IMG/VR virus record: IMGVR_UViG_3300046009_011788
Span: 1-38,739 of that record
DNA: 38,739 nt
Reading direction: 5' to 3' (one strand)
Origin: a virus
Under the pieces are notes generated by a model. That model saw nothing but the letters and a program-made list of their open reading frames with translations. It ran no database searches and was not told the origin of the DNA. A program made the translations under genes and the position numbers. Positions 8,421-38,466 of this stretch are shown piece by piece. The stretch's first letter is position 1. Each line of letters starts with the position of its first letter.

Positions 8421-8448
8421 TAGTTATTGATAACCCAAGGACTATATC

Positions 8449-9680: not shown

Positions 9681-9699
9681 CTACAATATATAGGTGAGT

Positions 9700-14332: not shown

Positions 14333-14336
14333 TAAT

Positions 14337-15206
14337 ATGAAAAAATTGAAAATCGGATTTACTGATACTCATGATCACCTTAAACTATTTTTCGTATCTA
14401 TACTTAGTTCTCTTTATGATGTAGAAATAGACAATGAATCACCTGATTTCTTATTATTTGGTGATGATAACTTTGGAACAAATAATAAAAATTTTTCCAA
14501 AAAGGATTGTATAAAAATATTTTATACTGGTGAAAATAGGCGCCCAGAGAATTTTGATTGTCATTATGCAATTAGCTTCGATCACAACTTTAACAATTGG
14601 CATTATAGATTACCTTTATTTGTCATCTATATGTGGTCATTAGAAAATATTCACAAGACAAAATACAATTATAACTATATCTTTGATCCTGATATAGAAG
14701 ATAAAAACGCTTTTGCTTCTTTTGTAGTAGGTAATCCTAATTGTTCACAACGTAATGATTTTTTTAAACTTTTATCTAAATATAAAAGAGTAGATGCAGG
14801 TGGAAAGCTATTTAAAAATGTAGATATTGATCTACCAACAGAAGCTAGTAAGATAGAATTCTTATCCACAAGAAAATTTAATATTTGTTTTGAAAGTATG
14901 ACGTATCCAGGGTATGTTACTGAAAAAATTCTTCACGCTTTTTATGCTGGTACTATTCCTATCTACTGGGGCAACCCTCTTATAGAAGCAGATTTTAATT
15001 CAAAAGCTTTTATTAATTGCCATAATTATATGTCTTTCGATGAGGTAGTAGATGTAGTAAGCAAATTAGATAATGACGAAGAATTATATAATAATATGCT
15101 TATGCAACCAGCATTTAGTGCAGATGTTGCGCCATCTTACATTTTATTAAATAATTTCTTAAATTGGTTCGATGCAATAGTGTATCAGAAAAGAGACTAC
15201 CGATGA
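14337..15206 (+). CDS. GT10 alpha-1,3-fucosyltransferase
   Basis: A 289-residue enzyme of family GT10, which transfers L-fucose from GDP-fucose in alpha-1,3/1,4 linkage to a sugar acceptor. Diagnostic is the C-terminal block NICFESMTYPGYVTEKI followed by LHAFYAGTIPIYWGNP (about residues 182-218), which is the GDP-fucose site of this family. The N-terminal part has the usual IFYTGENRRP and a YAISFDHNF/RLPLF stretch. The length matches compact bacterial members such as Helicobacter FucT. It sits four bases after the previous gene, in the fucose sub-operon, and uses the product of gmd and fcl. Confidence 0.9.
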   Translation: MKKLKIGFTDTHDHLKLFFVSILSSLYDVEIDNESPDFLLFGDDNFGTNNKNFSKKDCIKIFYTGENRRPENFDCHYAISFDHNFNNWHYRLPLFVIYMWSLENIHKTKYNYNYIFDPDIEDKNAFASFVVGNPNCSQRNDFFKLLSKYKRVDAGGKLFKNVDIDLPTEASKIEFLSTRKFNICFESMTYPGYVTEKILHAFYAGTIPIYWGNPLIEADFNSKAFINCHNYMSFDEVVDVVSKLDNDEELYNNMLMQPAFSADVAPSYILLNNFLNWFDAIVYQKRDYR

Positions 15207-15913
15207 AAATACAAACCTTTATTTTTAATTGGAAAGGCCAACATAATAATACGTTGGATAAAATAAAGCAATTTGAAAAAATTGGAATAGAAACTACAGT
15301 TATTAATAGTGATGATTCTTATACTCACTATGATAATTGGTACCATATTGGTGAGCAAAGTTTCTTTACTTCACAGATGTTAAAAGCTACTGAATTATTT
15401 GATTCTGATTTTCTTTTTCATATACAAGCAGATGTGTCATATGATAATTGGCAGAAGTTAATAGATGATGCTCTAAAATACTACGACAAATATGAATGGG
15501 GTTTGTATGCTCCTAATATAGATTATACATGGTATGATGCATCGAAGACTGATGTAGATAGATTGCAGCTTGAAGATCCAAATCTAAAAATGGTTGCTAG
15601 TACTGATTGTTCTTGTTGGTTTATCAATAAGGATATCATTGACATCTCTAAAGACAGAGAAATAAATTTTGAACCTTATCAAATTGGTTGGAGTTTTGAT
15701 TTAGTGTATTCCGCTATTTCATATCTAAACAAATATCCAGTTATTAGAGACTATAACCATACCGTCAAACATCCTAAAGGTTCAGGATATAATGTTGAAC
15801 AGGCAGAACAGGAAATGATACAATTGTATAATTCATTACCTGAGGATATTCAAAAGGCATTTTATTTTATTAAAATGGACAGAGAAAGATTAGCAGATTA
15901 TTATGGAGTTTAA
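15203..15913 (+). CDS. Predicted GT-A glycosyltransferase-like protein
   Basis: A 236-residue protein starting at ATG 15203, ATGA-coupled to the GT10 gene; the frame is open further upstream but that would overlap GT10 by over 40 bases. The pattern of an N-terminal strand IQTFIFNWKG, a helix SFFTSQMLKATELFDS, then FLFHIQADVSYDNW (a DxD-like metal site on a GT-A strand, about residues 71-84) and a later SCWFINKD resembles small GT-A transferases. No closer family is recognised. As part of the sugar operon it may extend the glycan. Medium-low certainty on function. Confidence 0.55.
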   Translation: MKIQTFIFNWKGQHNNTLDKIKQFEKIGIETTVINSDDSYTHYDNWYHIGEQSFFTSQMLKATELFDSDFLFHIQADVSYDNWQKLIDDALKYYDKYEWGLYAPNIDYTWYDASKTDVDRLQLEDPNLKMVASTDCSCWFINKDIIDISKDREINFEPYQIGWSFDLVYSAISYLNKYPVIRDYNHTVKHPKGSGYNVEQAEQEMIQLYNSLPEDIQKAFYFIKMDRERLADYYGV

Positions 15914-16828
15914 ATGATACTAGATTTTCATGATATAAATTCATTAATAGGGGAAAAAATAGATAAAGGTGATCCTGCATCTATTTTGAGAATGGATAAT
16001 ACTATAGGGTATGTTCTTGATTGTTTTAACAAAAAAGAAATGCCTGTAGCTCAATTTTTTAATCAATTGACCTTTATAGAAGGCGGTATTTATCCTATAG
16101 ATGGTGATTTTTATTATCAAAGAATAGTACCTGAGATGTACAAATCTATGCATGATTCTGACATTTTAGGATTCGTTGATATTTCAGGTGATATTCTAAG
16201 AGGAAATTTTTTAAATAATTTTGATACCAATAAAGTAATTTTTGCTGGTAATAATCATAATTATTTAGTAATGGATCCTGGGGCATTACTAGGTCTATCA
16301 CATTTTGGAAAAGTTGATGATCCTTGGACATCCCATTTGAAAGATAAAAAGGTATTAGTTATATCTACACATTTAGATTCTATAAAACATCAATGGAAAA
16401 AAATTGATAAAGTGTGGGGAAATAATAAAAATTTAATTGCTCCTTTTAAATTAGTAGATGTTATTCACTCTCCGTATCATCCGAACGTTGATAATAGGCA
16501 GTATGGAAAATTTAACGATTGGTTAGAATGTGTAGAACATATTAAAGGAATTATTGACACATATGACTATGATATTTTATTGGCTGGCTGCTCAACATCT
16601 GCTCCGTTATATTGCACACATGCTAAATCAAGAGGCAAAATTGGAATCCAAACAGGCGGTGTACTTCAATTATTTTTTGGTTTAATTGGTAAAAGATGGT
16701 TGAGTGAAGGGCATTATGCTAGATGGAGAGAAATGTTTAATGAACATTGGATTTTCCCTTTATTATCAGATCACGCCCAACAAAAAAATAATTATAATTA
16801 TTTAGAAACTAATCAAGCATATTGGTAA
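15914..16828 (+). CDS. Unidentified sugar-operon protein, possibly GT-D-like glycosyltransferase
   Basis: A 304-residue protein starting right after the preceding stop. The segment ASILRMDNTIGYVL near residues 23-36 recalls the nucleotide-sugar loop of GT-D (DUF1792-type) transferases. The C-terminal part, ILLAGCSTSAPLYCTHAK and then GKIGIQTGGVLQLFFGLIGK, resembles a conserved block seen in capsule-locus proteins of that kind. No signal peptide or membrane segment is seen. The assignment rests on these two blocks and on context. Confidence 0.45.
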   Translation: MILDFHDINSLIGEKIDKGDPASILRMDNTIGYVLDCFNKKEMPVAQFFNQLTFIEGGIYPIDGDFYYQRIVPEMYKSMHDSDILGFVDISGDILRGNFLNNFDTNKVIFAGNNHNYLVMDPGALLGLSHFGKVDDPWTSHLKDKKVLVISTHLDSIKHQWKKIDKVWGNNKNLIAPFKLVDVIHSPYHPNVDNRQYGKFNDWLECVEHIKGIIDTYDYDILLAGCSTSAPLYCTHAKSRGKIGIQTGGVLQLFFGLIGKRWLSEGHYARWREMFNEHWIFPLLSDHAQQKNNYNYLETNQAYW

Positions 16829-16830
16829 AA

Positions 16831-18153
16831 ATGAATAAACAACTTATTTTAAATGATATTGCTAAATATCTCACAGAAAAAAATTCTATTAAACAATGGA
16901 CAGCGGGTAAAGACACAGTATTTTATGCTGGTCCGTTTTTTGATGAAAAAGAAATAGTCTCGGCTGTGGATAGCCTCCTAGGGGGTTGGTTAGCCATGAG
17001 CGATAAATCCCGTGAATTTGAAAAAATATTTCCAAAATATTTCGGGAAAGATTTCGGTGTATTAACTAATTCTGGTTCTAGTGCTAATTTGCTTATGATG
17101 TCAACACTTACATCTAAGAGAGGATATAATTTTCCTAAAGGAACTAAGGTTTTAATGCCGATCGCAGGATTTCCTACGACATTGAATCCTACACTACAGG
17201 TCGGATTTGAACCAGTATTTGTAGATATAGAAATTGATACCTTAAATCTAGATTTAACTAAAGCAGAAGAATTAATTAAGCAACATGATATTAAAGTAAT
17301 TACATTTGCCCATGTACTAGGAAATCCTCCTAATATGAATTGGGTAATGGATCTTGTTAAAAAATACAATATGGTTTTACTTGAAGATTGTTGTGACGCA
17401 TTAGGTAGTACTTTTGAAGGCAGAGAACTTGGGTCATATGGAGATATGGCTTCTTGTTCTTTCTATCCCGCTCATCATATGACTATGGGTGAGGGTGGGT
17501 TCGTCGCTTGTAAAGATTATGACACTGAAGTTATTACAAGATCTTTTAGAGAATGGGGTAGAGGTTGTTATTGTGTAGGCCCTGAAGCAAATAAGTTAAT
17601 TTGTGGGTCATGTGGAAAAAGATTTTCTGAATGGATTCCTTGTATGCAAGGAGAAATTTTTGATCATAAGTATGTATATGATGAAATTGGATATAATCTC
17701 AAACCTATTGAAGCTCAAGCTGCTATGGGTTTAGAACAACTTAAAAAATTAGATACTATTGACAAACTGAGAAAACGTAATTATAATTTATTGTTTAATG
17801 TATATTCGAAATATGAAGAATACTTTCATTTACCTAGGCCTCAACCTGGTAGCGATCCTAGTTGGTTTGCCTTTCCAATAACAATTCGAAAAGGTTCGCC
17901 TTTTAGTAGAACAGATATTGTAGATTATTTAGAACAAAATTTAATTCAGACAAGACCATATTTTGCAGGAAACATTATGCTTCAACCTGCATATAGTCAC
18001 TTAATGAATCCTATGGATGCAAAAAATAATTATCCTATTGCGACCTATGTAATGACAAATACGTATTTTCATGGGACAAGCCCGGTTATCACTGAAGAAC
18101 AAGTAGCATATATAGGTAATATTGTAGATCAATTCATGAGTTTATTTGTATGA
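16831..18153 (+). CDS. rfbH: RfbH-type PLP/Fe-S sugar 3-dehydratase
   Basis: A DegT/DnrJ-fold enzyme of 440 residues, closest to RfbH/E1, which removes the C3 hydroxyl of an NDP-4-keto-6-deoxyhexose to give a 3,6-dideoxy sugar. The usual PLP-binding Lys is replaced by His in SFYPAHHMTMGEGG (about 212-225), the hallmark of the dehydratases. The cysteines in GCYCVG (about 245-250) and CGSCGKRF (about 258-265) correspond to the E1 iron-sulphur ligands, and DHKYVYDEIGYNLKP follows as in RfbH. ColD-type enzymes share the His but not this Cys pattern. Start ATG 16831 is preferred over an upstream in-frame TTG. No E3-type reductase is seen, so the electron donor must be a host protein. Confidence 0.88.
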   Translation: MNKQLILNDIAKYLTEKNSIKQWTAGKDTVFYAGPFFDEKEIVSAVDSLLGGWLAMSDKSREFEKIFPKYFGKDFGVLTNSGSSANLLMMSTLTSKRGYNFPKGTKVLMPIAGFPTTLNPTLQVGFEPVFVDIEIDTLNLDLTKAEELIKQHDIKVITFAHVLGNPPNMNWVMDLVKKYNMVLLEDCCDALGSTFEGRELGSYGDMASCSFYPAHHMTMGEGGFVACKDYDTEVITRSFREWGRGCYCVGPEANKLICGSCGKRFSEWIPCMQGEIFDHKYVYDEIGYNLKPIEAQAAMGLEQLKKLDTIDKLRKRNYNLLFNVYSKYEEYFHLPRPQPGSDPSWFAFPITIRKGSPFSRTDIVDYLEQNLIQTRPYFAGNIMLQPAYSHLMNPMDAKNNYPIATYVMTNTYFHGTSPVITEEQVAYIGNIVDQFMSLFV

Positions 18154-19178
18154 GAGTATGTGATTTTATTGCGGAATATCTTTATGACTATGGTGTAAGG
18201 CAAATCTACGGTTTAATGGGAGGAGGAGCATCTGGTCTTAATGATGGTTTTATTAAAAATGGTAAATTGGAATATGTTTGCTTTCATCATGAGCAAGGAG
18301 CAGGATATGCTGCTTATGCGGAAGCTAAAAGTACTAATAGATTATCAGTAGTAAATCCTACCACCGGATGTGGTGGAACTAATTGTATGACGCCTTTACT
18401 TAATAGTTGGCAAGATTCCACACCAGTATTATTTCTATCAGGCAACGTAAGATTAAAACATACATCTAATTATATAAACAAAACCAAAAACGTAAATATT
18501 AGAAAATATGGCGTACAAGAACATGATATAGTTAATAGTGTTAAGTCGATAACTAAATACGCTGCAGTAATTGAGGATGTTAGTAATGTTAAGTATGAAT
18601 TACAAAAAGCTATAGCTTTAGCAACCACAGGTAGACAAGGTCCAGTATGGTTGGATATACCTAGTGATATACAGGTAGCAACTATGCCTGAAGTATGTGA
18701 AGAATATACTGATAAAATAATTCATAATAGATGCCCGTCAGTATATGAAACTTTCGTTAGTTATTTAGAACAAAGTAATAGACCTATTGTATTAGCAGGA
18801 AATGGAATACATTTAAGTGATACGAGAACGCAATTTAAAAATTTTATAGAATATCATAATATTCCTTATGTATCGTCTTATCTTGGTAGAGATATTCTTC
18901 CTTTCGACCATAGATTAAATTTAGGTGCTATAGGTATTAAGGGAACTAGAGCAGCAAATTTCGCAATGCAACATTGTGATTTTTTATTTATACTAGGATG
19001 TTCATTAAATGCTACTCATTTAGGATATGATGAATCTCAATTTTCACCAAATTCAATCAAAATGATGATAGATATTGATTCTAATGAAACTTTTAAAAAT
19101 ATAATAGAATTAAATAAAGTATATAATTTAGATATTAGGGATTTTTTTAATGAATTCTATATTGAAACGAAGAAATAA
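18150..19178 (+). CDS. ThDP-dependent acetolactate-synthase-like enzyme, N-terminal part
   Basis: The first 342 residues of a thiamine-diphosphate enzyme of the acetolactate synthase/pyruvate decarboxylase type: the PYR domain with the activating Glu in FHHEQGAGYAAYAEA (about residues 45-59) and the central domain (PIVLAGNGIHLS and later FILGCS). It lacks the ThDP-diphosphate-binding domain, which is encoded in the next ORF in the +1 frame; the two overlap by 29 bases. ATGA-coupled to rfbH. YerE, which adds two carbons from pyruvate to a 3,6-dideoxy-4-keto sugar, belongs to this family, and the rfbH neighbour fits that use. Confidence 0.85.
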   Translation: MRVCDFIAEYLYDYGVRQIYGLMGGGASGLNDGFIKNGKLEYVCFHHEQGAGYAAYAEAKSTNRLSVVNPTTGCGGTNCMTPLLNSWQDSTPVLFLSGNVRLKHTSNYINKTKNVNIRKYGVQEHDIVNSVKSITKYAAVIEDVSNVKYELQKAIALATTGRQGPVWLDIPSDIQVATMPEVCEEYTDKIIHNRCPSVYETFVSYLEQSNRPIVLAGNGIHLSDTRTQFKNFIEYHNIPYVSSYLGRDILPFDHRLNLGAIGIKGTRAANFAMQHCDFLFILGCSLNATHLGYDESQFSPNSIKMMIDIDSNETFKNIIELNKVYNLDIRDFFNEFYIETKK

Positions 19179-19935
19179 CTGGGCCGATACCTGTTTATAT
19201 TGGAAAAATAAATGGCCAGTATTCACTGATAATTATAATGATAATGATTATGCCTTAAATATTTACACTTTTATAGAAGCTCTTAGTTCAGTTATGAGTA
19301 ATAATCATATAGTTATAACTGATGCTGGTTCTCCATCATATGCTCTGCCGCAAAATTTAAAATGTAAAGAAGATCAAAGATTTATATTTTCCGCCTCTCA
19401 GGCAGATATGGGATTTTCAGTACCAGGTGCTGTCGGTGTATCTAAATCTAATCCGAATAAACATATAATTGTTGTAACAGGTGATGGTAGTTTCAATTCT
19501 AATTTACAAGAGCTTTCTGTTATTAAACATCATAATTTGCCGATATCTATTTTTGTATTAGATAATAACGGTTATTTAAGTATAAAAAACACACAGAAGA
19601 AATTTTTTGATAATAGAGTATATGGTGTAAGTCCGCAAACAGGTGTAAGATTAGTAGATTTATATCAAACAGCAAATTTATTTAATTTAGAATTTGACAC
19701 AATATCATTAAAAAATACACTAAACGAAAAAATACATACACTGATTAATACATCTTTGCCGAAAATTGTGAAAGTATTATGTCAAGATGATCAAGAAATA
19801 ATACCAACACAAATGTTCAAACAAGTAAATGGAAATAAAGTTCAACCTGGACTAGACGACATGTATCCTTTTATGGATGATTTAGAATACCAAGAAGAGT
19901 TAAATAAAGTATATGAAAATACTAGTATTAGGTAG
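19150..19935 (+). CDS. ThDP-dependent acetolactate-synthase-like enzyme, C-terminal part
   Basis: The C-terminal ThDP-binding (PP) domain missing from the preceding ORF, 261 residues. Seen: the ThDP motif VVTGDGSFNSNLQEL followed by FVLDNNGYLSI (the GDG...NN pattern, about residues 111-142), and MGFSVPGAVG before it. The first residues (NNWADTCLYWKNKW) look like the linker of a one-chain enzyme. The ATG at 19150 has only a weak AGGGA upstream and follows a run of seven T (19142-19148). Losing one T would join both ORFs into a normal-length chain of about 594 residues. It may be a natural two-subunit enzyme, a programmed +1 shift, or a sequence error. Confidence 0.85.
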   Translation: MNSILKRRNNWADTCLYWKNKWPVFTDNYNDNDYALNIYTFIEALSSVMSNNHIVITDAGSPSYALPQNLKCKEDQRFIFSASQADMGFSVPGAVGVSKSNPNKHIIVVTGDGSFNSNLQELSVIKHHNLPISIFVLDNNGYLSIKNTQKKFFDNRVYGVSPQTGVRLVDLYQTANLFNLEFDTISLKNTLNEKIHTLINTSLPKIVKVLCQDDQEIIPTQMFKQVNGNKVQPGLDDMYPFMDDLEYQEELNKVYENTSIR

Positions 19936-20689
19936 TACTGGATTTATTGGTTCTAATATAACTAGTTATTATTTAGATAAACATACTATATTATCCCCGA
20001 AACGAATAGATATATTAGACAGTAATTTCATTTTAAATTTTATTAAAAATGAAACCCCCGATATAGTAATTAATTGTATAAGTTATGGTGGTAAGGAAAA
20101 CGTTAATCTAACTAAGACAGAGGATATTACTAATAACTTAGTTTTATTTAGTAATATTGTAAATGCTTCTAAATATTTTAAAAAATATATAAATTTAGGT
20201 TCCGGAATAGAATTGAATAGTGCACAATCTGTTTGGGAAAATATTCCGTCATCTAGTTCTTATGCTATATCTAAAAATATAATATCTAGATTTTGCGATA
20301 ATTTAGATAAATTTTATACTTTGAGACTATATGGGTGTTTTGGAATAAACGAACCTGAGTTTAGAATTTTTAGTAAGTATAAAAAATCTATTGGGAATGA
20401 ATTACTGGAAATTTCAGATAAATATTTTGATAATTTTTATATCAAAGATTTTTTAAAGGTTTTAGATTATTATATCTACAATAATAATCTAATAAAAGAT
20501 GTACATTGTGTATATAATAAAAAATTAAAATTAAGTGAACAGCTATCATTATTAAGTAAGGTTTTAAATTGCCAAGACAATTATTTAATAAAAGAAATAG
20601 GAAATAACTATATTGGGAATAGTAATACACTTGATAAAATTAATTTAAAATTAATTGGGCTTGAGGAAGGACTATGGTCTTACAAATGA
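19913..20689 (+). CDS. NAD(P)-dependent sugar reductase/epimerase (SDR)
   Basis: An extended SDR of 258 residues: NAD(P) loop LGSTGFIGSNI (about 6-16), a central strand DIVINCISYGG, and the catalytic SYAISKN (YxxxK). It is shorter than typical epimerases (about 300-330) and resembles RmlD/4-ketoreductase-type members in size. It overlaps the ThDP enzyme gene by 23 bases. In a yersiniose-like route this position would be filled by the reductase that acts on the side-chain ketone (YerF role). That is an inference from order, not from a specific motif. Confidence 0.72.
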   Translation: MKILVLGSTGFIGSNITSYYLDKHTILSPKRIDILDSNFILNFIKNETPDIVINCISYGGKENVNLTKTEDITNNLVLFSNIVNASKYFKKYINLGSGIELNSAQSVWENIPSSSSYAISKNIISRFCDNLDKFYTLRLYGCFGINEPEFRIFSKYKKSIGNELLEISDKYFDNFYIKDFLKVLDYYIYNNNLIKDVHCVYNKKLKLSEQLSLLSKVLNCQDNYLIKEIGNNYIGNSNTLDKINLKLIGLEEGLWSYK

Positions 20690-21633
20690 AAAAAGTTGTT
20701 TACGTTACTGGTTGTTTAGGGTTTATTGGATATCATGTAGCGAAAGCATGCCTAGAAAGGGGATGGTATGTCCATGGTATAGATAAATGTACATATGCTG
20801 CCAATTTAAATCTTTTAGATAGCTTAAATAGTTATGGCCAACATTTTAAATTTACAGTTCAAGATATTAATGATTTAACTTCATTATATGACTGCGATTA
20901 TATAATCAATACAGCAGCCGAGACTCATGTAGATAACAGCATAGAAAGTTCAGATGTATTTTTGAAAAGTAATGTAAATGGTGTACATAGATTATTAGAG
21001 CTCATTAAATTAAAACCTAAATCTAGAAGACCTATTCTATTTCATTTTAGTACAGATGAAGTATATGGGGATATTGAAATAGGATTTCATATAGAAAAAG
21101 ATTTATTAAAGCCTAGTAATCCATATGCAGCAACAAAAGCAGCAGCTGACATGCTTGTTCTTGCTTGGGCAAGAACATATGATATTCCATATGTTATAGT
21201 AAGACCAACCAATAACTATGGTATTGGTCAATATGTTGAAAAATTTATACCTAAAGCCTGTAAAAATTTAACCTTAGGAAAACCAATAGTTTTACATGAT
21301 AAAGGACTTCCTAGAAGAACATGGTTATCAGTTGAAGATACTGCAAATGCTATTCTCAAAATAATTGATTCAAAAATTACTAATGAAATTTTTAATATTT
21401 CCGGTAACTATGAAGAACAAAATATTGTTGTAGCAAGGAAAATAATTAATAACTTTTTTGGTCATGTAGACTATGAAAACTATTTAGATAAATCTGAAGT
21501 AAGACCAGGGCAGGATGTACGATATGCGATTGATGACAATAAACTTAGAAATTTAGGATGGCAACCTAATGCGTCGTTTGATAAAGATTTAAAATTAATT
21601 ATAGATTGGTATAAACAAAATTTTATATGGTAA
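20674..21633 (+). CDS. rmlB: NDP-glucose 4,6-dehydratase (RmlB-type)
   Basis: A 319-residue SDR enzyme that oxidises and dehydrates dTDP-glucose (or a related NDP-hexose) to the 4-keto-6-deoxy sugar. Seen: NAD loop TGCLGFIGYH, DKCTYAANL (the RmlB-like DKxTYAGNL), the active-site STDEVYGD, NPYAATKAAAD (YxxxK), RPTNNYGIGQ, and the closing DVRYAIDDNKLRNLGW. A GAGGAAGG ribosome site at 20663-20670 supports ATG 20674. Overlaps the previous SDR by 16 bases. It could feed the 3-dehydratase RfbH with a 4-keto sugar. No glucose-1-phosphate thymidylyltransferase is present, so dTDP-glucose would be taken from the host. Confidence 0.92.
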   Translation: MVLQMKKVVYVTGCLGFIGYHVAKACLERGWYVHGIDKCTYAANLNLLDSLNSYGQHFKFTVQDINDLTSLYDCDYIINTAAETHVDNSIESSDVFLKSNVNGVHRLLELIKLKPKSRRPILFHFSTDEVYGDIEIGFHIEKDLLKPSNPYAATKAAADMLVLAWARTYDIPYVIVRPTNNYGIGQYVEKFIPKACKNLTLGKPIVLHDKGLPRRTWLSVEDTANAILKIIDSKITNEIFNISGNYEEQNIVVARKIINNFFGHVDYENYLDKSEVRPGQDVRYAIDDNKLRNLGWQPNASFDKDLKLIIDWYKQNFIW

Positions 21634-21637
21634 TGTG

Positions 21638-22360
21638 ATGGATCAGCCAATTGTTACTATTATTACCGCAACTACGGGCACAAAATATTTAGAACAAAAT
21701 ATTGCCTCAGTTGCTAGTCAAACATATAAAAATATTCAACATTTAGTTGTAATAGATGGGAAACATCATTACAAAAAAGCTAAAAAATATATTATAGAAG
21801 ATAATGATGTTTTAGTTTTACCATATGCTACAGGTACAGAACAATATAATGGGCATAGAATATATGGAGGATGCACGTATTTTGCTAAGGGAGACTTCAT
21901 TATCTATTTAGATGAAGATAATTGGATTGATACAAATCATGTAGAAAGTCTTATTAATTGTGTAGGTGATGGTTGGGCTTGTGCTTTGAGAAAAATTACT
22001 GATATGAAAGGTAATTATATTTGTAACGATGATTGTGAGAGTCTTGGTAATTGGGAATCGGTACTAGGAGATTATTTTGTAGATGTAAATTGTTTCTTTT
22101 TACCTAAAAAAATAGCATTGCAATTATCTCAGCTTTGGTATAGGCGCGCAAGACATCCAAATGAACAACCTGAAGTAGATAGAATATTGACATATACACT
22201 AAAACATAATAATATATTGTGTACTGTGTCTGGAAATTATACGGTAAATTACCGAGCAGGAAATAGAGAAGATTCTGTTAAACCTGAGTTCTTTATACAT
22301 GGGAATCATATAATGGAACAACGATATAACTATAGTTATCCATGGAGGAAGAGTGCTTAA
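21638..22360 (+). CDS. GT2-family glycosyltransferase
   Basis: A 240-residue GT-A glycosyltransferase. Seen: VTIITATTGTKYLEQNIAS at the start, SQTYKNIQHLVVIDG, and the metal-binding FIIYLDEDNWI (a DxD-type site, about residues 88-98). The pattern is that of GT2. It lacks membrane helices, so it acts in the cytoplasm. ATG 21638 is chosen over GTG 21635. It overlaps the next gene by 8 bases. The acceptor is unknown; it probably adds a sugar to the glycan made by this operon. Confidence 0.84.
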   Translation: MDQPIVTIITATTGTKYLEQNIASVASQTYKNIQHLVVIDGKHHYKKAKKYIIEDNDVLVLPYATGTEQYNGHRIYGGCTYFAKGDFIIYLDEDNWIDTNHVESLINCVGDGWACALRKITDMKGNYICNDDCESLGNWESVLGDYFVDVNCFFLPKKIALQLSQLWYRRARHPNEQPEVDRILTYTLKHNNILCTVSGNYTVNYRAGNREDSVKPEFFIHGNHIMEQRYNYSYPWRKSA

Positions 22361-23165
22361 TTTATTCGGTAACGGGTTTATAGGAAAAGAATATAGTAAA
22401 AGATTTGTCTGCGAAGTAAATGAAAGAAATAATCTTGATCCGATAACTAATAATATTCTATATCTAATTAGTACAGTACATAATTATCATGTATTCGACG
22501 ATACTCTTTTAGATATTAATACTAATTTAGTCACATTAATAAAAGTTCTCGACAATGCGAGAAATAAATTTAATTCGGATTTTACTTTTAATTTTGTAAG
22601 TTCATGGTTCGTGTATGGTAATACAGATATGCCAGCAACTGAAAATAGCATTTGCAATCCTAAAGGATTCTATTCTATTACTAAGAAAACTGCTGAAGAT
22701 TTGCTAATCTCATACTGTGAAACATTTGGTATAAAATATAGAATTATGAGGCTTTGCAATGTTCTTGGAAATACTGATGAAAAAGTATCTGCTAAGAAAA
22801 ATGCTTTACAATTTCTTATACAAAAATTAAAAAATAACGAAGATATTGAACTTTATGATTCTGGTAATTTCTACAGAGACTATATGCATGTCGACGATGT
22901 TGTATCAGCAATAAATTTAGTTATTAATAAAGGCAATACTAACGAAATTTTTAATATTGGGTTTGGAGAACCAGTACTATTTAAATTAATTATTGATTAT
23001 GCTAAAGACAAAATTAATAGTAAATCTAATATTATTGCTATTCCACCTAAAGAATTTCATTCTAAAATACAAGTTAAATCCATGTATATGGATAATTCTA
23101 AAATAAAAAAATTAGGATTTACTGCAACAAAAAATATTTTCGAAACTATAGATACTTTAATTTAA
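22353..23165 (+). CDS. NAD-dependent epimerase/dehydratase (SDR)
   Basis: A 270-residue extended SDR starting at GTG 22353, which is preceded by GGAGG at 22344-22348. The NAD loop is unusually close to the N-terminus (NLFGNGFIGKEYS, residues 3-15). Other motifs: NFVSSWFVYGN, the catalytic FYSITKKTAED (YxxxK), YRIMRLCNVLGN and FYRDYMHVDDV. It overlaps the GT2 gene by 8 bases, and its stop shares one base with the next ATG. The sugar substrate is unknown; this is one of seven SDR-type sugar enzymes in the window. Confidence 0.8.
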   Translation: MLNLFGNGFIGKEYSKRFVCEVNERNNLDPITNNILYLISTVHNYHVFDDTLLDINTNLVTLIKVLDNARNKFNSDFTFNFVSSWFVYGNTDMPATENSICNPKGFYSITKKTAEDLLISYCETFGIKYRIMRLCNVLGNTDEKVSAKKNALQFLIQKLKNNEDIELYDSGNFYRDYMHVDDVVSAINLVINKGNTNEIFNIGFGEPVLFKLIIDYAKDKINSKSNIIAIPPKEFHSKIQVKSMYMDNSKIKKLGFTATKNIFETIDTLI

Positions 23166-24028
23166 TGGCAAAAATAATTATACTATCAGTTGGTGCTATC
23201 AGATATAAATCTGAGGGGCACACATCTCAAACAAGTTTTTTAGATAATGTAATTTTTAATCTGCAAGAATTAAAACAATGTTTTTCCAATCATGATGTAA
23301 CCACAATTATATCAACTTGGGCTCCTAAGATTGAGAATAGTATTTGTTTAGAATCGGGTAGGATTAATAGTTTTGATTATGATCTTGTTGACTTTGATAA
23401 TCAAATAAAAGATAAAATAGATAAGTATTTCGTATTCAATCAACAAGATAATACCAAATACGCATTAGCAAAAAATAACGCATTACCTTTTACTCATTAT
23501 AATTTACTAGAAGCTGTAAAAAAAATTGTAAATGATGGTATAGAATTTGATTTTATTATTAAAACTAGGCATGATAATCTGTTTATTTTAAATAATGTAG
23601 ATAAATATTTAGATGGGGGAACTTATATTCCTCCTCTGTATTGGGGAGATTGGAATAGATTTTGTTTGGGTAAAGATTTCAGAACATCATTGGATATAGT
23701 TCATAGTTTACGAGAGGAAAATAAATGGAATTTAGATTTCCCCCTTGGTGTATATGAGAAGCATCATGATGCATTGAATGACCATCATTTTATAATGAGT
23801 AAAGATACCATTCTAAAATATTTAGATATTTCTGACAATAACTATAGATTATTAATTAACAGTTCAAATAGTTTGGAACAATATAACAAAAAATTTATGG
23901 AATTATCAGGAGAATTTTCATATATAGATAATTCAGATATAGAAGAGTATGTAAATAGAAGAGGATTTATTTTAAATCACACATCTTTCCATTGGCATGG
24001 TAATTATTATCATAGGTATTTTAAATAA
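23165..24028 (+). CDS. WavE-like LPS biosynthesis protein (predicted)
   Basis: A 287-residue protein. Its N-terminal MAKIIILSVGAIRY, the central FDFIIKTRHDNLFI (an R-x-D like the one in WavE-type transferases, about 128-141) and the downstream HHFIMSKD resemble WavE-family proteins of LPS core or capsule loci. Family membership is likely, while enzymatic detail is unknown. It is coupled (TAATG) to the preceding SDR gene. After it come 13 bases and a GTG-started kinase-like gene. Confidence 0.55.
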   Translation: MAKIIILSVGAIRYKSEGHTSQTSFLDNVIFNLQELKQCFSNHDVTTIISTWAPKIENSICLESGRINSFDYDLVDFDNQIKDKIDKYFVFNQQDNTKYALAKNNALPFTHYNLLEAVKKIVNDGIEFDFIIKTRHDNLFILNNVDKYLDGGTYIPPLYWGDWNRFCLGKDFRTSLDIVHSLREENKWNLDFPLGVYEKHHDALNDHHFIMSKDTILKYLDISDNNYRLLINSSNSLEQYNKKFMELSGEFSYIDNSDIEEYVNRRGFILNHTSFHWHGNYYHRYFK

Positions 24029-24041
24029 TACGAGTTAGTTA

Positions 24042-24782
24042 GTGAAAGTTATCCGTAAACTTATAGGTAATTCTTTAAGTATAGTAGAACTTATTGAAAT
24101 AGATAATAAAATATATGTAAGAAAAACAGGGGATGTGTCCAGAAATATAGAAAGAATAAATTCTTTAAAGTGTCTTAATTTACCCCTTCCTGATATAATT
24201 ACTTATAATGACAAACATTATATTATGGAATATATCGAACATCTAGATATGAAAACATATTTAGAGAAAAAAGATGTTTTAAATCTTGTAAAATTTATAG
24301 ACAAGATTATTATATCTCTACAGACTAAAATAGTACTAAAAGATTATTCAAACGTATATTATGAGAAATTAAGTAAAATAAATTTACAAGAATATGACCT
24401 ACCTTTTTCCAAAGTACAATTAATAGATAGGTTGCCAAAAAAGTTACCTTCTTCTGAATATCATGGAGATTTAACATTAGAAAATATTTTGTATCAGCAA
24501 AATAAAGATTTTATGTTGATAGATCCTTTAACCAGCGAGTATGACTCATATGTGTTTGATCTTGCAAAATTAAGACAAGATATTACATGTAAATGGTTTA
24601 TACGTAATGATAACGTATATTTAGATTCAAAATTAAAAATTTTAGTAGATTCACTATCTAAATATGAACATTTTAATAATGATAATATACTTATATTAAT
24701 GTTATTAAGAGTTTTACCGTACACTAAAAATATAATAGATAGAAATTTTTTAACAAGCGAGATAAAAAAATTATGGAAGTGA
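24042..24782 (+). CDS. APH/choline-kinase-fold small-molecule kinase
   Basis: A 246-residue predicted phosphotransferase of the aminoglycoside/choline kinase fold. The catalytic loop YHGDLTLENILY (HGDxxxxN, about residues 139-150) and the metal-binding FMLIDPLT (D-P in place of DFG) are clear. The N-lobe has an IYVRKTG strand in the position of the ATP-binding Lys. The start is GTG 24042, as no ATG lies near. It overlaps the next gene, a nucleotidyltransferase/HAD fusion, by 10 bases. The pairing recalls LicA/LicC (choline kinase and CTP:phosphocholine cytidylyltransferase) or sugar-1-kinase plus NDP-sugar synthase. The substrate is not fixed by the sequence. Confidence 0.75.
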   Translation: MKVIRKLIGNSLSIVELIEIDNKIYVRKTGDVSRNIERINSLKCLNLPLPDIITYNDKHYIMEYIEHLDMKTYLEKKDVLNLVKFIDKIIISLQTKIVLKDYSNVYYEKLSKINLQEYDLPFSKVQLIDRLPKKLPSSEYHGDLTLENILYQQNKDFMLIDPLTSEYDSYVFDLAKLRQDITCKWFIRNDNVYLDSKLKILVDSLSKYEHFNNDNILILMLLRVLPYTKNIIDRNFLTSEIKKLWK

Positions 24783-25792
24783 TTATACCTTGTGCTGGTG
24801 CATCATCTAGATTTCCAGGTGTAAGACCAAAATATCTACTTACTGATTATTCTGCAAAGTTAATGATTGAAAAGGCAGCTGAGCATTATATAGGTAAACA
24901 TAACGTAACTATAGTAATATTAAAAGATCATGAAATAAAATATGGAGTCAGTTCTGAACTTAAAGAAAAGTTTGGAAACAAAATTAATTTAGTTATACTA
25001 GATAATCCGACTTTAGGCCCTGCTGATACAGTATACCAAGCTATAAAAAAAGGAAATATTAATTTACAAGAACAGTTATTAGTAAAAGACTGCGATGGAT
25101 TTTATAAGACAACAGAGATTGAAGGTAATGCTATCTATATTGCTAAACTATCTAAACATCCTAATATAAAGACCGCTGGAGCTAAAAGTTATACTGTATC
25201 AAATAATCAAAATATTATAAATTGTGTTGTAGAAAAAAGTATAGTGAGCAATCATTTTTGTGTCGGCGGATATCAATTTAAAACCGCTCAAAGTTTTTTA
25301 GACGCATTTGATAATTTAAAAGATAATTTAACTAAGGAAATATTTGTTTCCAATATAATTGATTATTTGATTTCGTCAGGCACTGTATTTTTTGAAAGTG
25401 AAGTTGAAGATTTTATTGATGTAGGTACTATAGAAGATTGGTATGAATATAATAATAAACCTACATATTTTTGTGATATAGATGGTACTATATTAGTGTC
25501 TAAAGAAGGGTATAATAATGGATATGAGGCATTAGAAAATAATGTTAAAGTATTACTAAATAAAAAAAGTGAAGGGTGTAAAATTATATTTTGTACTGCT
25601 AGACCTGAAAAATATAGACAAGTTACCAGATCTATGTTAGATGAACTTGGGTTTGTTGATTGTGATTTAATCATGGGTATCCATCATTCTAAAAGAATAA
25701 TAATAAATGATTATGCTAAAACCAACCCATATCCTACTGCTATTGCTATTAACCTGAAAAGAGATGCTGATAATTTAGGGGAAATGATTTGA
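24773..25792 (+). CDS. Sugar nucleotidyltransferase fused to HAD-type phosphatase
   Basis: A 339-residue two-domain protein. Residues 1-220 form a nucleotidyltransferase: the opening IIPCAGASSRF followed by RPKYLL is the NTP-binding loop with its Lys, and VKDCDGF holds the metal Asp pair. From about residue 230, FCDIDGTIL is HAD motif I (DxDGT), followed by IFCTARPEKY (motif II) and a KRIIINDYA segment near motif III/IV. Such NTase-HAD fusions occur in capsule and LPS loci. With the upstream kinase this gives a phosphorylate-then-activate module for an unknown small molecule or sugar. Overlaps the preceding gene by 10 bases. Confidence 0.82.
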   Translation: MEVIIPCAGASSRFPGVRPKYLLTDYSAKLMIEKAAEHYIGKHNVTIVILKDHEIKYGVSSELKEKFGNKINLVILDNPTLGPADTVYQAIKKGNINLQEQLLVKDCDGFYKTTEIEGNAIYIAKLSKHPNIKTAGAKSYTVSNNQNIINCVVEKSIVSNHFCVGGYQFKTAQSFLDAFDNLKDNLTKEIFVSNIIDYLISSGTVFFESEVEDFIDVGTIEDWYEYNNKPTYFCDIDGTILVSKEGYNNGYEALENNVKVLLNKKSEGCKIIFCTARPEKYRQVTRSMLDELGFVDCDLIMGIHHSKRIIINDYAKTNPYPTAIAINLKRDADNLGEMI

Positions 25793-26799
25793 CTATACTA
25801 ATTACAGGAGCAGCAGGAGGAATTGGCTCTACGTTAGCATTACAACTAATAAACAAAAACTATAAAGTTATTGGATTTGATAATTTAAATAATGGTTATC
25901 TATCAAATCTTGAGGAAAATGGTAAAAAATTTTGTGAATTGATTGTTGGTGATATAAGAGATAATGAACTTTTAGTTAAATCTATTGAAAAATATAATGT
26001 AGAAAATATAATACATCTAGCTGCTATATCATCATTACCCGCATGTGAAAGTAATCCAAATGAATGTTTTCAAGTAAATGTTGCAGGCACAGCCTCAGTG
26101 CTAGATGCTGCCAAAAAATGTATGATTAAAAGAGTAATAGTTGCAAGTACATCTGCGATTTATGAGAACAATAATGTTTCAGACGCGCCTTTCAAGGAAA
26201 CAATACAAGTTAATCCTAGATTATTTTATCCATTATCAAAAAAATTGATGGAAGATATAGTTTTGTCATACAATAGCAATTATAATATGGATGTAGTAAC
26301 ATTAAGATTTTTCAATGTGTTTGGACCAAGACAAGATATCCATAGAATAACTCCCCCTTTAATAAATTATATTGTTAAACAACATAAGAATAAAGAAAAA
26401 ATTACATTTTATTCAAACGGTGATCAAGTTAGAGACTATATCCACGCTAATGATGTTACTAAATGTATAGAACAATGCCTTAAAAAAGAAAATATTTCTA
26501 ATGAAATATTTAATGTATGCACCGAAACTTTAACCTCAGTGAAAAATATTATTCAATATGCAGAAAAAGCTTTTAACACTAAGTTGAATTACACATATGA
26601 ACAACCGAAAAATTATTGGAATACTTATCAACAATTGTTTCATGGTTATCCATTGAACAGATCTGTAATAGAAAAAGAAGTCAATAAGTTCGCTCTAGGC
26701 AGTTTAGAAAAATGTAAAAATATTTTAGAATGGATTCCTAATTGTAATATTGAAGAGTTAATGATACAAAGCATGAGAGAAAATTATGAAAGATATTAA
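25789..26799 (+). CDS. NAD-dependent sugar epimerase (GalE/WbpP-like SDR)
   Basis: A 336-residue extended SDR starting at TTG 25789, which overlaps the preceding TGA. No ATG lies nearby, and the NAD loop ILITGAAGGIGS begins at residue 3, so the rare TTG start is credible. Other features: DNLNNGYLSN, HLAAISSLPACE, ASTSAIYE, the catalytic YPLSKKLMED (YxxxK), RFFNVFGPRQD and QVRDYIHANDV. It resembles UDP-sugar 4-epimerases of the WbpP type. It overlaps the following DUF3310-like gene by 14 bases and is the last gene of the sugar block. Confidence 0.85.
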   Translation: MTILITGAAGGIGSTLALQLINKNYKVIGFDNLNNGYLSNLEENGKKFCELIVGDIRDNELLVKSIEKYNVENIIHLAAISSLPACESNPNECFQVNVAGTASVLDAAKKCMIKRVIVASTSAIYENNNVSDAPFKETIQVNPRLFYPLSKKLMEDIVLSYNSNYNMDVVTLRFFNVFGPRQDIHRITPPLINYIVKQHKNKEKITFYSNGDQVRDYIHANDVTKCIEQCLKKENISNEIFNVCTETLTSVKNIIQYAEKAFNTKLNYTYEQPKNYWNTYQQLFHGYPLNRSVIEKEVNKFALGSLEKCKNILEWIPNCNIEELMIQSMRENYERY

Positions 26800-34159: not shown

Positions 34160-34238
<79 letters not shown>

Positions 34239-34246
34239 TATAAATA
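34239..34246 (+). promoter_or_regulatory. Late promoter box (TATAAATA) between the tRNAs
   Basis: An exact TATAAATA directly after the CCA of the first tRNA and 10 bases before the second. Start of transcription would fall near 34252, about five bases before the second tRNA. It could be fortuitous in AT-rich spacer DNA. Confidence 0.5.
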
Positions 34247-34256
34247 AACAGTCTAT

Positions 34257-34331
34257 TGCGGGGTAGTTCAGAAGTAGAACGCTGGACTCATAATCCAGAG
34301 GCCGTTGGTGCGATTCCAACCCCCGCTTCCA
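34257..34331 (+). tRNA. tRNA with CAT anticodon and mismatched acceptor end (initiator-like Met)
   Basis: Acceptor pairs 2-7 are GCGGGG with CCCCGC (34321-34326), leaving positions 1 and 72 as T and T, a mismatch like the one that marks bacterial initiator tRNA. D stem GTTC/GAAC, anticodon stem CTGGA/TCCAG, loop CTCATAA, T arm GTTGG/CCAAC, encoded CCA at 34329-34331. Odd points: the D loop is short and lacks the GG pair, the T loop reads TGCGATT, the discriminator is T, and the anticodon stem lacks the three G-C pairs of initiators. So initiator identity is open. Confidence 0.85.
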
Positions 34332-35254: not shown

Positions 35255-35878
35255 TTATACACTTACTGGTCTTATAACGGGTTTCTTAACTACTGGTCCA
35301 CCTGAAGGAGCAGCACTTGGTCCTGGCATTGGGTCTGGCATCATTGGATCATCCATTGGACCTGGCATAGGATCGTCCATCATTCTAGAAGGACCTATTG
35401 GACCTGCCGATACTGCGCCCAATGGTCTTATACCACCAGGTGAGGACAAGTTCTTTTGTCCGTTCATTGCATTTGCCTGAGCCGCTGCACCAGCCATCGC
35501 TGCTTCTTTACCTGATCCAGCTAGCATAATACCAGATAAGGTACCACATAAGAATGTAGCTACCGGAATAATGAGTTCAAAGAACTTTTGATCGATCGGA
35601 CTGATTGCATTAAGAGGTTGGGTAACAAACATAATAGAATAAAGAACGGTAAATACAATTCCAATAAGAGTGAAAGCCAAGCAGCAACCAATAATAAACT
35701 TAAGTCGAACCATGAGTTCATTTTCTGTATACCTTTCACCTGGTCTTGATCTTACTTCAGAATTGTGACTATCTTTCTTTTCAGGTGTAGTTGATTTTTT
35801 AATTGGTGGTGTCATTACTTTCTTTTCCGTTCCCTTGTCTTCAATTCCAGGGTCTTTAAACATCTTTTTAAAATCCAT
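35255..35878 (-). CDS. Membrane protein with two helices and a Pro/Met-rich tail
   Basis: A 207-residue protein. A charged N-terminal 60 residues precede two hydrophobic segments (LKFIIGCCLAFTLIGIVF and about 25 residues later LIIPVATFLCGTLSGIML). Then comes an Ala-rich helix and a low-complexity tail of repeated DDPMPGP/MMPDPMPGP units. The hairpin of two helices recalls small phage holin-like proteins, and the block TFLCGTLSGIML is common in marine myophage proteins of unknown function. It overlaps no gene and sits two bases from the lipoprotein gene. Confidence 0.6.
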   Translation of the reverse strand: MDFKKMFKDPGIEDKGTEKKVMTPPIKKSTTPEKKDSHNSEVRSRPGERYTENELMVRLKFIIGCCLAFTLIGIVFTVLYSIMFVTQPLNAISPIDQKFFELIIPVATFLCGTLSGIMLAGSGKEAAMAGAAAQANAMNGQKNLSSPGGIRPLGAVSAGPIGPSRMMDDPMPGPMDDPMMPDPMPGPSAAPSGGPVVKKPVIRPVSV

Positions 35879-35880
35879 TT

Positions 35881-36102
35881 TTATTTTCCTTTACATTGCT
35901 CGCATTTATTCCCTGGACTTGAAAATGATGCAACACCTTCTTGTCCTTTGAATATATGTTCCGGGCAATCTCTAGATACTTCGCAATAAGGTTTTTTACA
36001 ATAATCTTTATCCCAATTGTCTGGATTTTGACAAGGGTATCTATATCTTGAATCGCAACTCACCAGTAAAAGTATTGCGAATACAGTAATTAAGTGTTTC
36101 AT
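35881..36102 (-). CDS. Cys-rich lipoprotein
   Basis: A 73-residue protein with a lipoprotein signal: MKHLITVFAILLLVSC, where LVSC is the lipobox and the Cys is residue 16. The mature part has eight further-or-fewer Cys spread as CQNP, YCKKPYCEVSRDC and KCEQCKGK, suited to disulfides in the periplasm. It resembles neither classical spanin. Its place among membrane proteins suggests a role at the host envelope (lysis, exclusion or adsorption), which is inference. Confidence 0.68.
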   Translation of the reverse strand: MKHLITVFAILLLVSCDSRYRYPCQNPDNWDKDYCKKPYCEVSRDCPEHIFKGQEGVASFSSPGNKCEQCKGK

Positions 36103-36114: not shown

Positions 36115-36645
36115 TTATAAGGGCATCCACATCCAAACAGCTTGACTCACTAATAAAGCACCTACTGCACCAACAATACCACTGATATAGAACATCGACA
36201 TACTGACTGCTAAAATACTTGCAGTTAATAGTACAATTGCTATTTGTAATATGCTACCGCCCCAAGTAAACCATGGTGATTTAAGTTTAGCCGCGTCCCT
36301 TTCAGCTTCAAGGACTTTGGCTTTTTCCATAATCTCTTTCTTATCATCACTCATGCGCTTTGCTTCTGCCAGGAATTTATCTTTATTCTCTGGTTTGTTG
36401 GCTTCTGCAGCACTAATTTCGTATAGTACACCTCTAACATTCTTGGCTTGATACCAAGCCCACATATTATTTGCTTGAATAGTATTGTTTTGAATCTTGC
36501 TACTATTCGAACCACCTAACATAGTATTTATTGCCAAAATAGCAGCTAAAAAGACAATAATAAACCCTGCCTTGTCTTTAATTTTTGCTTCACGTTCTGA
36601 TCTTGTTAGTGGTTTCTTTTCTTCTAGTTTTTTATCTTCCGTCAT
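36115..36645 (-). CDS. DUF4337-like membrane protein
   Basis: A 176-residue membrane protein. The first hydrophobic segment is AGFIIVFLAAILAINTML, followed by NNTIQANNMWAWYQAKNVR, the signature stretch of DUF4337 proteins, a charged helix (about 60 residues, coiled-coil-like) and two C-terminal hydrophobic segments. The frame is open to an ATG at 36705, but ATG 36645 (MTEDKKLE) has GGAGAG just before it and gives only a 14-base overlap with the upstream gene, so that start is preferred. Function of DUF4337 is unknown. Confidence 0.7.
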   Translation of the reverse strand: MTEDKKLEEKKPLTRSEREAKIKDKAGFIIVFLAAILAINTMLGGSNSSKIQNNTIQANNMWAWYQAKNVRGVLYEISAAEANKPENKDKFLAEAKRMSDDKKEIMEKAKVLEAERDAAKLKSPWFTWGGSILQIAIVLLTASILAVSMSMFYISGIVGAVGALLVSQAVWMWMPL

Positions 36646-37021
36646 CTTCTCTCCACTTTGGCTTGTTGTCTGGAGGTTTAATAATGGGTTTAGGTTCATA
36701 TTCATCCTTTTTAGTTAAATACTTATCCAATAAAGCATTTCCTACCCAGGCAGTCATATATCCCATAAAATACCATTCGCTGAATCTTTCTTCCACTATT
36801 AAATATACAAAACCCCAGGTACTTACTATCCAAGCGCCAAATCTGACAAATTTCTTTTCGTCAATTTTGCCTCTTGAACAGATAAGATCCTTTAAATCTA
36901 TGTTGCTTTCGCTATTCCTGTGCCATATCCATAATAGAAGTATTAGAAATATGACTACAAGTATAAGCACAGAGCTCATAGCTATTTGCGTTTTATTGAT
37001 AGAATCCCAGTCTAAGTTCAT
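36632..37021 (-). CDS. Membrane protein, possible holin-like (129 aa)
   Basis: First gene of the minus-strand block. 129 residues with an N-terminal helix (SSVLILVVIFLILLLWIW), a central charged loop and one or two further hydrophobic segments (FGAWIVSTWGFVYLIV and YFMGYMTAWVGNALL), then a Pro/Lys-rich tail. The layout fits a small phage membrane protein such as a holin, but no family is certain. Transcription would start from the minus-strand half of the palindromic late promoter at 37041-37054. Confidence 0.6.
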   Translation of the reverse strand: MNLDWDSINKTQIAMSSVLILVVIFLILLLWIWHRNSESNIDLKDLICSRGKIDEKKFVRFGAWIVSTWGFVYLIVEERFSEWYFMGYMTAWVGNALLDKYLTKKDEYEPKPIIKPPDNKPKWREDDGR

Positions 37022-37040
37022 CTTTTTTAAGTAAGGTTAC

Positions 37041-37054
37041 TATAAATATTTATA
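37041..37054. promoter_or_regulatory. Divergent overlapping late promoters (palindrome TATAAATATTTATA)
   Basis: A perfect 14-base palindrome that contains the T4 late box on both strands: TATAAATA at 37041-37048 (plus) and, read on the minus strand, at 37054-37047. The plus box serves the cyclase gene, the minus box the membrane-protein block whose first ATG is at 37021. In T4 the box spans about -13 to -6, so the plus transcript would start at or next to the A of the cyclase ATG. Confidence 0.75.
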
Positions 37055-38292
37055 TGGAAACTAAACTCGCCACCATTATCTGCAGTGACGTTATCGGTTA
37101 CAGCAGTCTTATGCAACAAGACGAAGAAGGCACCCTACGAAAGTTGGATGCCTGCCGTGCTGTTATCGATCCACTCATAGACTCCAGTAAAGGAAGATTG
37201 TTTAATACTGGAGGTGATAGTGTATTAATTGAATTTGCCAGTGCAGTAGATGCAGTCAAATTCGCTATTGAAATGCAAGCTAGAATTAAGAAACTTAAAA
37301 ATGGAATGCGCTGGCGTATAGGCATGCATGTAGGTGAAGTATGGATATATGGTACTAATCTTATGGGCGATGCTGTAAATCTAGCAGCCAGAACAGAAAG
37401 TCTAGCTGATTACGGCGGCGTAACTATGACCGAGACTGTATATAAATTGATTGTCGGTAAAATGAAAGAATTGAAATTTGTCAGCAGAGGTGTGCAAGAG
37501 TTTAAAAATGTTTCTCCAATGGAAATTTGGAGTATTGAAATAGACGGTGCCGAACCTAATCCTCATTTATCTAAGGCACCTAAAACTCAAGTTTCATCTA
37601 CACCAACTAAATCACATAAAGAACTTATTGCCGCAATAATTAATGATGCTGCTGCAAGAAATAGATCTATTACTGACGCACAAAATTTTAAAAGAGATGA
37701 AAAGTTTGGACCTGCTGTAAGAATATTGATGTGGAGAATCACCAAACAAGATAAAGCAGCAGTTGATGATCTTGTTAGTATGGGTATGAAAGATCTAATA
37801 CCTAAAGAATTAAAACCCTATGTAGATGCAATATTTAAAGAATTTTGTTACAAGCTTGATAGTGAAAGATTGTTAGCTATTGCTGATCTTATGGAGAAAA
37901 TGGGTTATAGATCTTCTGCATTCCAATTTGTTAAGACTGCAGGTAAAATAGATGAAAGAGCACAACAACGATATGCAGTGATGGTGTTCGATGATCCAAA
38001 CAGTAGCCAAAGTGAAATGACTGCTATACTGGAGGATTTGAAAGAAGTTGCTATGAAACGTAATGTTTCAGCAATGATGAAACTTGGTGAGTTCTATTTG
38101 AAATTAAATGATAAAAAGAATGCCTTTAGATGGTTGTATGCAGCCAGAGCCGAACACAACCAACAGGCACAAAAGATGCTAGAGGATTTAAATAAAACTC
38201 TTAGTAAAGCAGACTTCAATAACTATAAAACAGATGCAGATGCACTTGTGGATCAAATAAAATTTATAGACGACAATCGAATGAAACTATAA
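37054..38292 (+). CDS. Class III nucleotidyl cyclase with C-terminal Sel1/TPR-like repeats
   Basis: A 412-residue protein with an N-terminal class III adenylate/guanylate cyclase domain (about 1-170). The two metal-binding Asp are in IICSDVIGYS (Asp12) and TGGDSVLIEF (Asp55); the substrate and transition-state region is GDAVNLAARTE (about 103-113), with Asp, Asn and Arg all present. Thus the domain looks catalytically complete and would make cAMP or another cyclic NMP. The Lys often found before GD is Asn51. The second half holds alpha-helical repeats (AMMKLGEFYLKLNDKKNAFR, then WLYAARAEH), Sel1-like. No membrane segment. The ATG has no ribosome site and sits at the predicted late start point. 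Confidence 0.92.
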   Translation: METKLATIICSDVIGYSSLMQQDEEGTLRKLDACRAVIDPLIDSSKGRLFNTGGDSVLIEFASAVDAVKFAIEMQARIKKLKNGMRWRIGMHVGEVWIYGTNLMGDAVNLAARTESLADYGGVTMTETVYKLIVGKMKELKFVSRGVQEFKNVSPMEIWSIEIDGAEPNPHLSKAPKTQVSSTPTKSHKELIAAIINDAAARNRSITDAQNFKRDEKFGPAVRILMWRITKQDKAAVDDLVSMGMKDLIPKELKPYVDAIFKEFCYKLDSERLLAIADLMEKMGYRSSAFQFVKTAGKIDERAQQRYAVMVFDDPNSSQSEMTAILEDLKEVAMKRNVSAMMKLGEFYLKLNDKKNAFRWLYAARAEHNQQAQKMLEDLNKTLSKADFNNYKTDADALVDQIKFIDDNRMKL

Positions 38293-38466
38293 TTACTTGT
38301 CTCTATTCAATTTATTTACTGCATCCCACAAAGCAGTGATTTGTTTGTCATAGTTTTTTTCCAAATAATCTAATCTCACCTTTAAGGTGACTGCATAAGC
38401 AGCAATCGCAACTACACCTGCACCTAAGAACCACAACTTACCTAACGCATCTGCAAGAGTTTCCAT
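38293..38466 (-). CDS. Small membrane protein with coiled-coil tail (57 aa)
   Basis: A 57-residue minus-strand gene, convergent with the cyclase gene and abutting its stop. It has one hydrophobic helix (LWFLGAGVVAIAAYAVTL, about residues 11-28) followed by a charged amphipathic helix (LDYLEKNYDKQITALWDAV). It begins four bases after the upstream gene's stop, so the two are probably co-translated. No family is recognised; a small membrane-anchored assembly or lysis protein is possible. Confidence 0.62.
   Translation of the reverse strand: METLADALGKLWFLGAGVVAIAAYAVTLKVRLDYLEKNYDKQITALWDAVNKLNRDK

Follow-up and report, generated by a model that had tools for sequence, protein, structure and literature searches.

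The cyclase gene and its neighbours

The window, that is, the whole viral record of 38,739 bases analysed here, carries towards its right end a gene for a class III nucleotidyl cyclase that lies among genes for small membrane proteins. The features of this region are as follows.

35255..35878, minus strand: f1, two-TM protein with a Pro/Gly-rich tail, 207 aa (phrog_25359), in 28 of 41 loci
35881..36102, minus strand: f2, small Cys-rich predicted lipoprotein, 73 aa, in 27 of 41 loci
36115..36705, minus strand: f6, DUF4337 membrane protein, 196 aa (PF14235, E 3e-30)
36632..37021, minus strand: 129-aa membrane protein (phrog_1322), divergent from the cyclase and served by the same promoter palindrome
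37041..37054, both strands: palindrome TATAAATATTTATA, a T4-late-promoter-like octamer read both ways, facing the cyclase on the plus strand and the membrane block on the minus strand
37054..38292, plus strand: class III nucleotidyl cyclase, 412 aa, with a catalytic domain (about residues 1-165), a linker (166-186) and a Sel1/TPR-like helical repeat (187-412)
38293..38466, minus strand: f3, single-TM coiled-coil protein, 57 aa, convergent with the cyclase and abutting its stop codon
38471..38737, minus strand: f5, long coiled-coil protein that runs off the contig (217 aa in relatives, with one predicted TM)

The cyclase reading frame has exactly the coordinates given by a first-pass annotation made from the DNA letters. 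That annotation had also recognised the head-to-head block of minus-strand membrane-protein genes, which we find to encode 129, 196, 73 and 207 aa from 37021 down to 35255. However, it overlooked a closer link, namely f3, which converges on the cyclase stop codon and elsewhere belongs to lysis cassettes. A plus-strand open reading frame at 36585-37034 is antisense to two real genes and was taken as spurious. Two tandem tRNA-Met genes (34160-34331) lie just ahead of the membrane block. Further away, a stretch of about 17 kb (9694-26799) devoted to sugars and surface glycans, with genes for a GDP-mannose dehydratase, a family-10 fucosyltransferase, an aminotransferase, a TPP enzyme and epimerases, separates a CobS-like ATPase from the sliding clamp.

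The phage protein is a class III cyclase

Cyclase residues 6-161 match PF00211 with an E of 1.1e-10 and 41.9 bits, against a Pfam cut-off of 21.9, and the best PDB sequence match is 3mr7 (E 2e-22), Rv1900c being found at E 3e-10. In an AlphaFold model built on 25 relatives, the catalytic domain superposes on Rv1900c (1ybt) and on 3mr7 with a Z of 24 and an rmsd of 1.6 over 161 residues, and these nearest folds are both purine cyclases. The key catalytic residues, announced as present from the translation, are indeed in place: Asp12 and Asp55, for the metals, and Asn109 and Arg113, for the transition state, are invariant in 25 of 25 full-length members, the last two lying within the GDAVNLAAR motif at residues 105-113. 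By domain cut-off, fold and catalytic residues, the phage protein is a class III cyclase. Pairwise dN/dS among the phage cyclases is 0.04-0.06 and low in both domains (0.03-0.07 in the catalytic one), so both are under selection.

The base-selecting positions are less usual. Lys with Asp/Thr (for ATP) and Glu with Cys (for GTP) are the canonical selectors, common in class III although not obligatory. The phage cyclase differs from them, with Asn51 and Asn102, invariant in 25 members, in place of Lys and Asp/Thr, and because of these selectors the substrate cannot be read from the sequence. Since the Burkholderiaceae relative L197 and many marine alphaproteobacterial cyclases have this Asn/Asn pair too, the phage seems to have inherited it and not to have reached it by decay; in the sequence alignment, Rv1900c also has Asn at the first (Lys) position. 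We read Asn51/Asn102 as a variant subtype, a difference that should bear on the substrate and not on class III membership.

The C-terminal residues 187-412 fold as a helical repeat, with a pLDDT of 91 when the domain is folded alone in AlphaFold. The best fold match is the Sel1 protein LpnE (Z 13.7, rmsd 7.0 over 199 residues), followed by other Sel1/TPR proteins, this Z barely exceeding the level that helical repeats attain through their common arrangement. Of the Sel1-like repeats first proposed for this end of the protein, the helical repeat stands; no Pfam Sel1 profile matches the cyclase at E<=1. Foldseek returned zero matches below 1e-3 for the domain. Judged by the model, the Sel1-like label is plausible.

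A phage family with Burkholderiaceae relatives

The window carries T4-like genes for SbcCD-type 46/47, gp45 (the sliding clamp), gp44 and gp62 (the clamp loader), regA and Hsp20, and the named phages nearest to it in gp44, which share only 60% identity, have Methylophilales hosts. Cyclase relatives, 63-99% identical, are present on about 50 other IMG/VR contigs, records of 183 and 400 kb among them; the count comprises 52 contig names and 49 distinct sequences, fragments included. In several independent contigs the T4-like gene order near the cyclase is repeated. With the neighbourhood shared by independent contigs, contamination or a chimera, which would have left the gene absent from relatives, is unlikely, and the cyclase belongs to the phage.

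Outside this family such genes are as rare in phages as the first-pass annotation supposed. Among 50,697 GenBank phage records there were zero cyclase relatives at E 1e-5, and a relaxed search gave weak matches to the cyclase domain only in MT838110 and LR745206, with two more at chance level. A scan with a generic cyclase DNA motif gave mostly noise, L103 and L124 being the only clear members among the matches listed, and BFVD holds a few other cyclase-domain proteins from uncultured Caudovirales.

Where does the phage cyclase come from? A genome scan gave a single full-length cellular relative, L197 (CANJBQ010000020.1), and three more (L233, L234 and L265) then came from the same Burkholderiaceae genus, in which the C-terminal domain was found in 4 of 186 genomes. 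A search for this domain in order and phylum samples gave only L197 and weak matches to part of the repeat region. In the tree, from which pelagiphage sequences were left out, the phage proteins form one clade (100/99) that is sister to L197 (93/81) and then to L233/L234 (84/98), the support of these two outer forks being moderate, and the alphaproteobacterial cyclase group stands apart. The C-terminal domain is common only to the phage cyclases and these Burkholderiaceae genomes, in agreement with the tree. We infer a transfer from bacterium to phage, because the catalytic domain is widely distributed in bacteria. Immediately ahead of the relative, L233 and L234 encode a further cyclase, with an apparent PAS-type sensor domain.

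In L197, the gene directly downstream of the cyclase encodes a PF00027 cyclic-nucleotide-binding protein (E 1e-19), which argues that the product of this type of cyclase is a 3',5'-cyclic mononucleotide sensed by a protein with such a domain (CNBD). The preceding genes we take, from their proteins, to be those for FlgL, MotA, MotB, FlhB and RpoN.

Three gene arrangements and a putative late promoter

Over 41 cyclase loci the recurring families are f1, f2, f3, f5 and f6, all membrane or secreted proteins, and f4, which is Asn/Thr-rich and secreted. In type A, the arrangement of the window, f1, f2 and f6 diverge from the cyclase, f3 converges on it, and f5 and f4 come after. Type B runs in one direction through spanin-like genes, a GH19 endolysin, f4, f5, f2, f1, a PhoH-like f8, f3 and the cyclase. 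Type C consists of f34 or f27, the cyclase, f7, f15 and a DnaB-like helicase. Besides abutting f3 convergently, the cyclase overlaps an upstream f3 or f27 by 11 nt and a downstream f7 by 1 or 4 nt, and hydropathy marks f3, f7 and f27 as small membrane proteins. A search of GenBank for relatives of f3 and of the DUF4337 protein found none.

Some loci show further peculiarities. The f4 pair (L134:9073-13058 and relatives) consists of two secreted proteins of about 500-840 aa, usually adjoining f5, one of them with long Asn/Thr repeats and a conserved C terminus; neither has a Pfam match, and only one has a PHROG match, a weak one. In place of f4/f5, L152 (4457-5173) and also L151, L185 and L186 encode a protein of 239-245 aa in which two TM helices flank a domain that resembles, by eye, a chemoreceptor sensor domain. 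At L370:927-2364, the type C neighbours (f34, an f27-like gene, f7 and f15) stand without a cyclase, apparently a natural absence.

Within the palindrome of the window, TATAAATA is a T4 late octamer ending five bases before the cyclase ATG, a position from which the transcript would have almost no leader. Of the 15 unit-initial cyclase copies, meaning those that open a unit or are not overlapped by a gene upstream, 11 have this octamer or the variant CTAAATA within 45 bases, often at -13, as compared with 0 of the 16 copies coupled to an upstream gene; these counts include the near-identical loci L131, L132 and L164, and shuffling predicts 0.35 in the unit-initial set and about 0.3 in each set. 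Because of this difference, the phage cyclase gene is probably expressed late.

f3 and the lysis cassettes

A scan for f3 gave 54 contigs, 31 with the cyclase and 23 without. In all 23 cyclase-free contigs f3 adjoins a 160-aa holin-like membrane protein, a label that comes from a weak match of one member (phrog_3427, E 0.002), and in 20 a GH24 endolysin follows, while in the remaining three the contig ends first. The set of 23 consists largely of near-copies of a single phage, from which L338, L339, L359/L360 and L363 differ. This company makes f3 a lysis-cassette protein by association. A GH19 endolysin lies within 9 kb in 11 of the loci with both f3 and the cyclase. The cyclase is thus found next to a lysis or late-membrane module, but not in all arrangements. 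Literature searches for a phage cyclase linked to lysis found no relevant paper. In L339, the f3 lysis cassette is immediately preceded (5949-8613) by a gene for a lectin-like target protein and then one for a reverse transcriptase, which apparently make up a diversity-generating retroelement.

What might the cyclase do for the phage?

From the domain, residues, conservation, kinship and neighbourhood of the cyclase, all of them features of the sequences, we infer its activity, substrate, docking, receptor and benefit. Our preferred reading, tentatively held at a probability of about 45%, is that of a late, membrane-associated, homodimeric cyclase whose cyclic nucleotide, most likely cAMP, acts via a host receptor. 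The protein, with its presumed common descent with the Burkholderiaceae chromosomal cyclase, is predicted to be catalytically competent as a homodimer. Its gene would be expressed late, driven by a promoter of the T4 late type or cotranscribed with genes for small membrane proteins, and, to judge by gene order, the C-terminal domain would probably attach the enzyme to one of the small membrane proteins f3, f7 and f27. The product would be a 3',5'-cyclic nucleotide, with cAMP favoured because of the kinship with purine cyclases. It might act through a cyclic-nucleotide-binding protein of the host, which we propose because no receptor is encoded nearby: the CNBD family PF00027 is absent from 20 phage records with the cyclase, many of them fragments. 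The likely payoff would be a late control of the infected cell, possibly of its membrane or motility state or of the timing of lysis. A redirection of host metabolism, raised in the first-pass annotation, is possible. The occurrence of f3 without the cyclase, and of f7 without it in L370, counts against this reading. Taken together, the data suggest second-messenger signalling by these phages in the late stage of infection.

It is rather unlikely that cyclase and f3 form part of the lysis machinery, the state or product of the cyclase being sensed at the membrane and timing f3 or a holin. In most loci f3 abuts the cyclase or is within one gene of it, GH19 endolysin and Rz-like spanins share the block in many cyclase phages, and both the late-promoter motif and the f3 cassettes of the cyclase-free contigs fit such a role. 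But f3 (57-62 aa) is too small for a known nucleotide-binding domain, the holin match and the near-copies among those contigs weaken the association, and the type C loci L138, L139, L141, L142 and L158 have f7 as partner and no f3. A narrower version, in which the repeat domain tethers the cyclase to f3/f7-type proteins and the nucleotide signal sets lysis timing through membrane state or holin triggering, we consider distinctly unlikely; to our knowledge, no second-messenger-linked phage lysis system has been described. Equally doubtful is a non-catalytic scaffold, which would retain the cyclase fold so as to dimerise or to act as a late structural protein. The unusual Asn/Asn pair, the likely late expression and neighbours that may be structural would suit it, but neither the two metal Asp residues nor the Asn and Arg for the transition state vary across about 35% divergence, and the dN/dS of the catalytic domain is low.

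The product might instead saturate or misdirect a host immune sensor that reads cyclic nucleotides. Such immunity is known (PMC11224242, PMC12657218), and a strongly conserved cyclase without a receptor in the phage records would suit a decoy; however, counter-measures against immunity are usually expected early whereas this cyclase looks late, its neighbours match no known defence-system model, and the Burkholderiaceae relatives lie in flagellar or housekeeping surroundings, all of which makes this a poor prospect. Still further down we place a Pycsar-like pair, a cCMP/cUMP cyclase with a neighbouring membrane effector directed at competing phages, which is very improbable. Several membrane proteins adjoin the cyclase and the PycC profile matches it weakly (E 4.6e-5), yet the likeness noticed in the first-pass annotation did not survive closer inspection. 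In a PADLOC scan of eight proteins, none of the neighbours covered matched a Pycsar effector (PycTM, PycTIR) or other known defence model, no CNBD was found, and the cyclase is structurally nearest to purine cyclases. Two residues ahead of the first metal Asp, PycC has an aromatic residue (F100 in EaPycC, F60 in AnPycC; PMC11224242), where 25 of 25 aligned phage members have Cys10. PycC chains are not among the 50 structure matches listed, an absence that excludes nothing.

That phages degrade or sequester cyclic-nucleotide signals is known. Few examples exist of phages that would make a cyclic mononucleotide, and our literature search gave one, the curli-linked cyclase of pelagiphages (PMC9599517). 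A phage cyclase as such is thus already known, while this family, its architecture, kinship and surroundings appear undescribed in the literature searched. With a strongly conserved family in about 50 phage contigs, probable late expression and a link to a lysis-cassette protein, it can be tested whether late in infection a phage increases the level of a host second messenger, and whether that signal touches lysis.

Comparison with known systems

With PycC the phage cyclase shares the class III fold and a weak profile match, but it lacks the aromatic pyrimidine-pocket residue and a known effector, is phage-borne and is probably late. Pelagiphages carry an adenylate cyclase of alphaproteobacterial kinship in a curli (T8SS) module (PMC9599517). 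That cyclase is likewise carried by phages, Myoviridae included, and adjoins surface genes, whereas its module has CsgG, CsgF and FecR (PMC9599517) and the cyclase described here groups with Burkholderiaceae (93/81, 84/98). CsgG was found in 0 of 20 phage records with the cyclase, control genomes being positive, and this result and the Burkholderiaceae kinship speak against a curli link.

Rv1900c of M. tuberculosis and 3mr7 of Silicibacter pomeroyi have the same catalytic fold (Z 24) at 30% identity. Rv1900c bears an alpha/beta-hydrolase domain and has Asp at the second selector site, where the phage cyclase has Asn, and the latter ends in a helical repeat. The closest counterpart is the Burkholderiaceae chromosomal cyclase, with the same two domains end to end at about 34-38% identity and, in L197, the same Asn/Asn selectors and the NLMGD.VNLAAR motif. 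The L197 gene belongs to a flagellar cluster and is followed by one for a CNBD protein; in the phages, by contrast, no CNBD is nearby and the cyclase is accompanied by small membrane partners and a putative late promoter.
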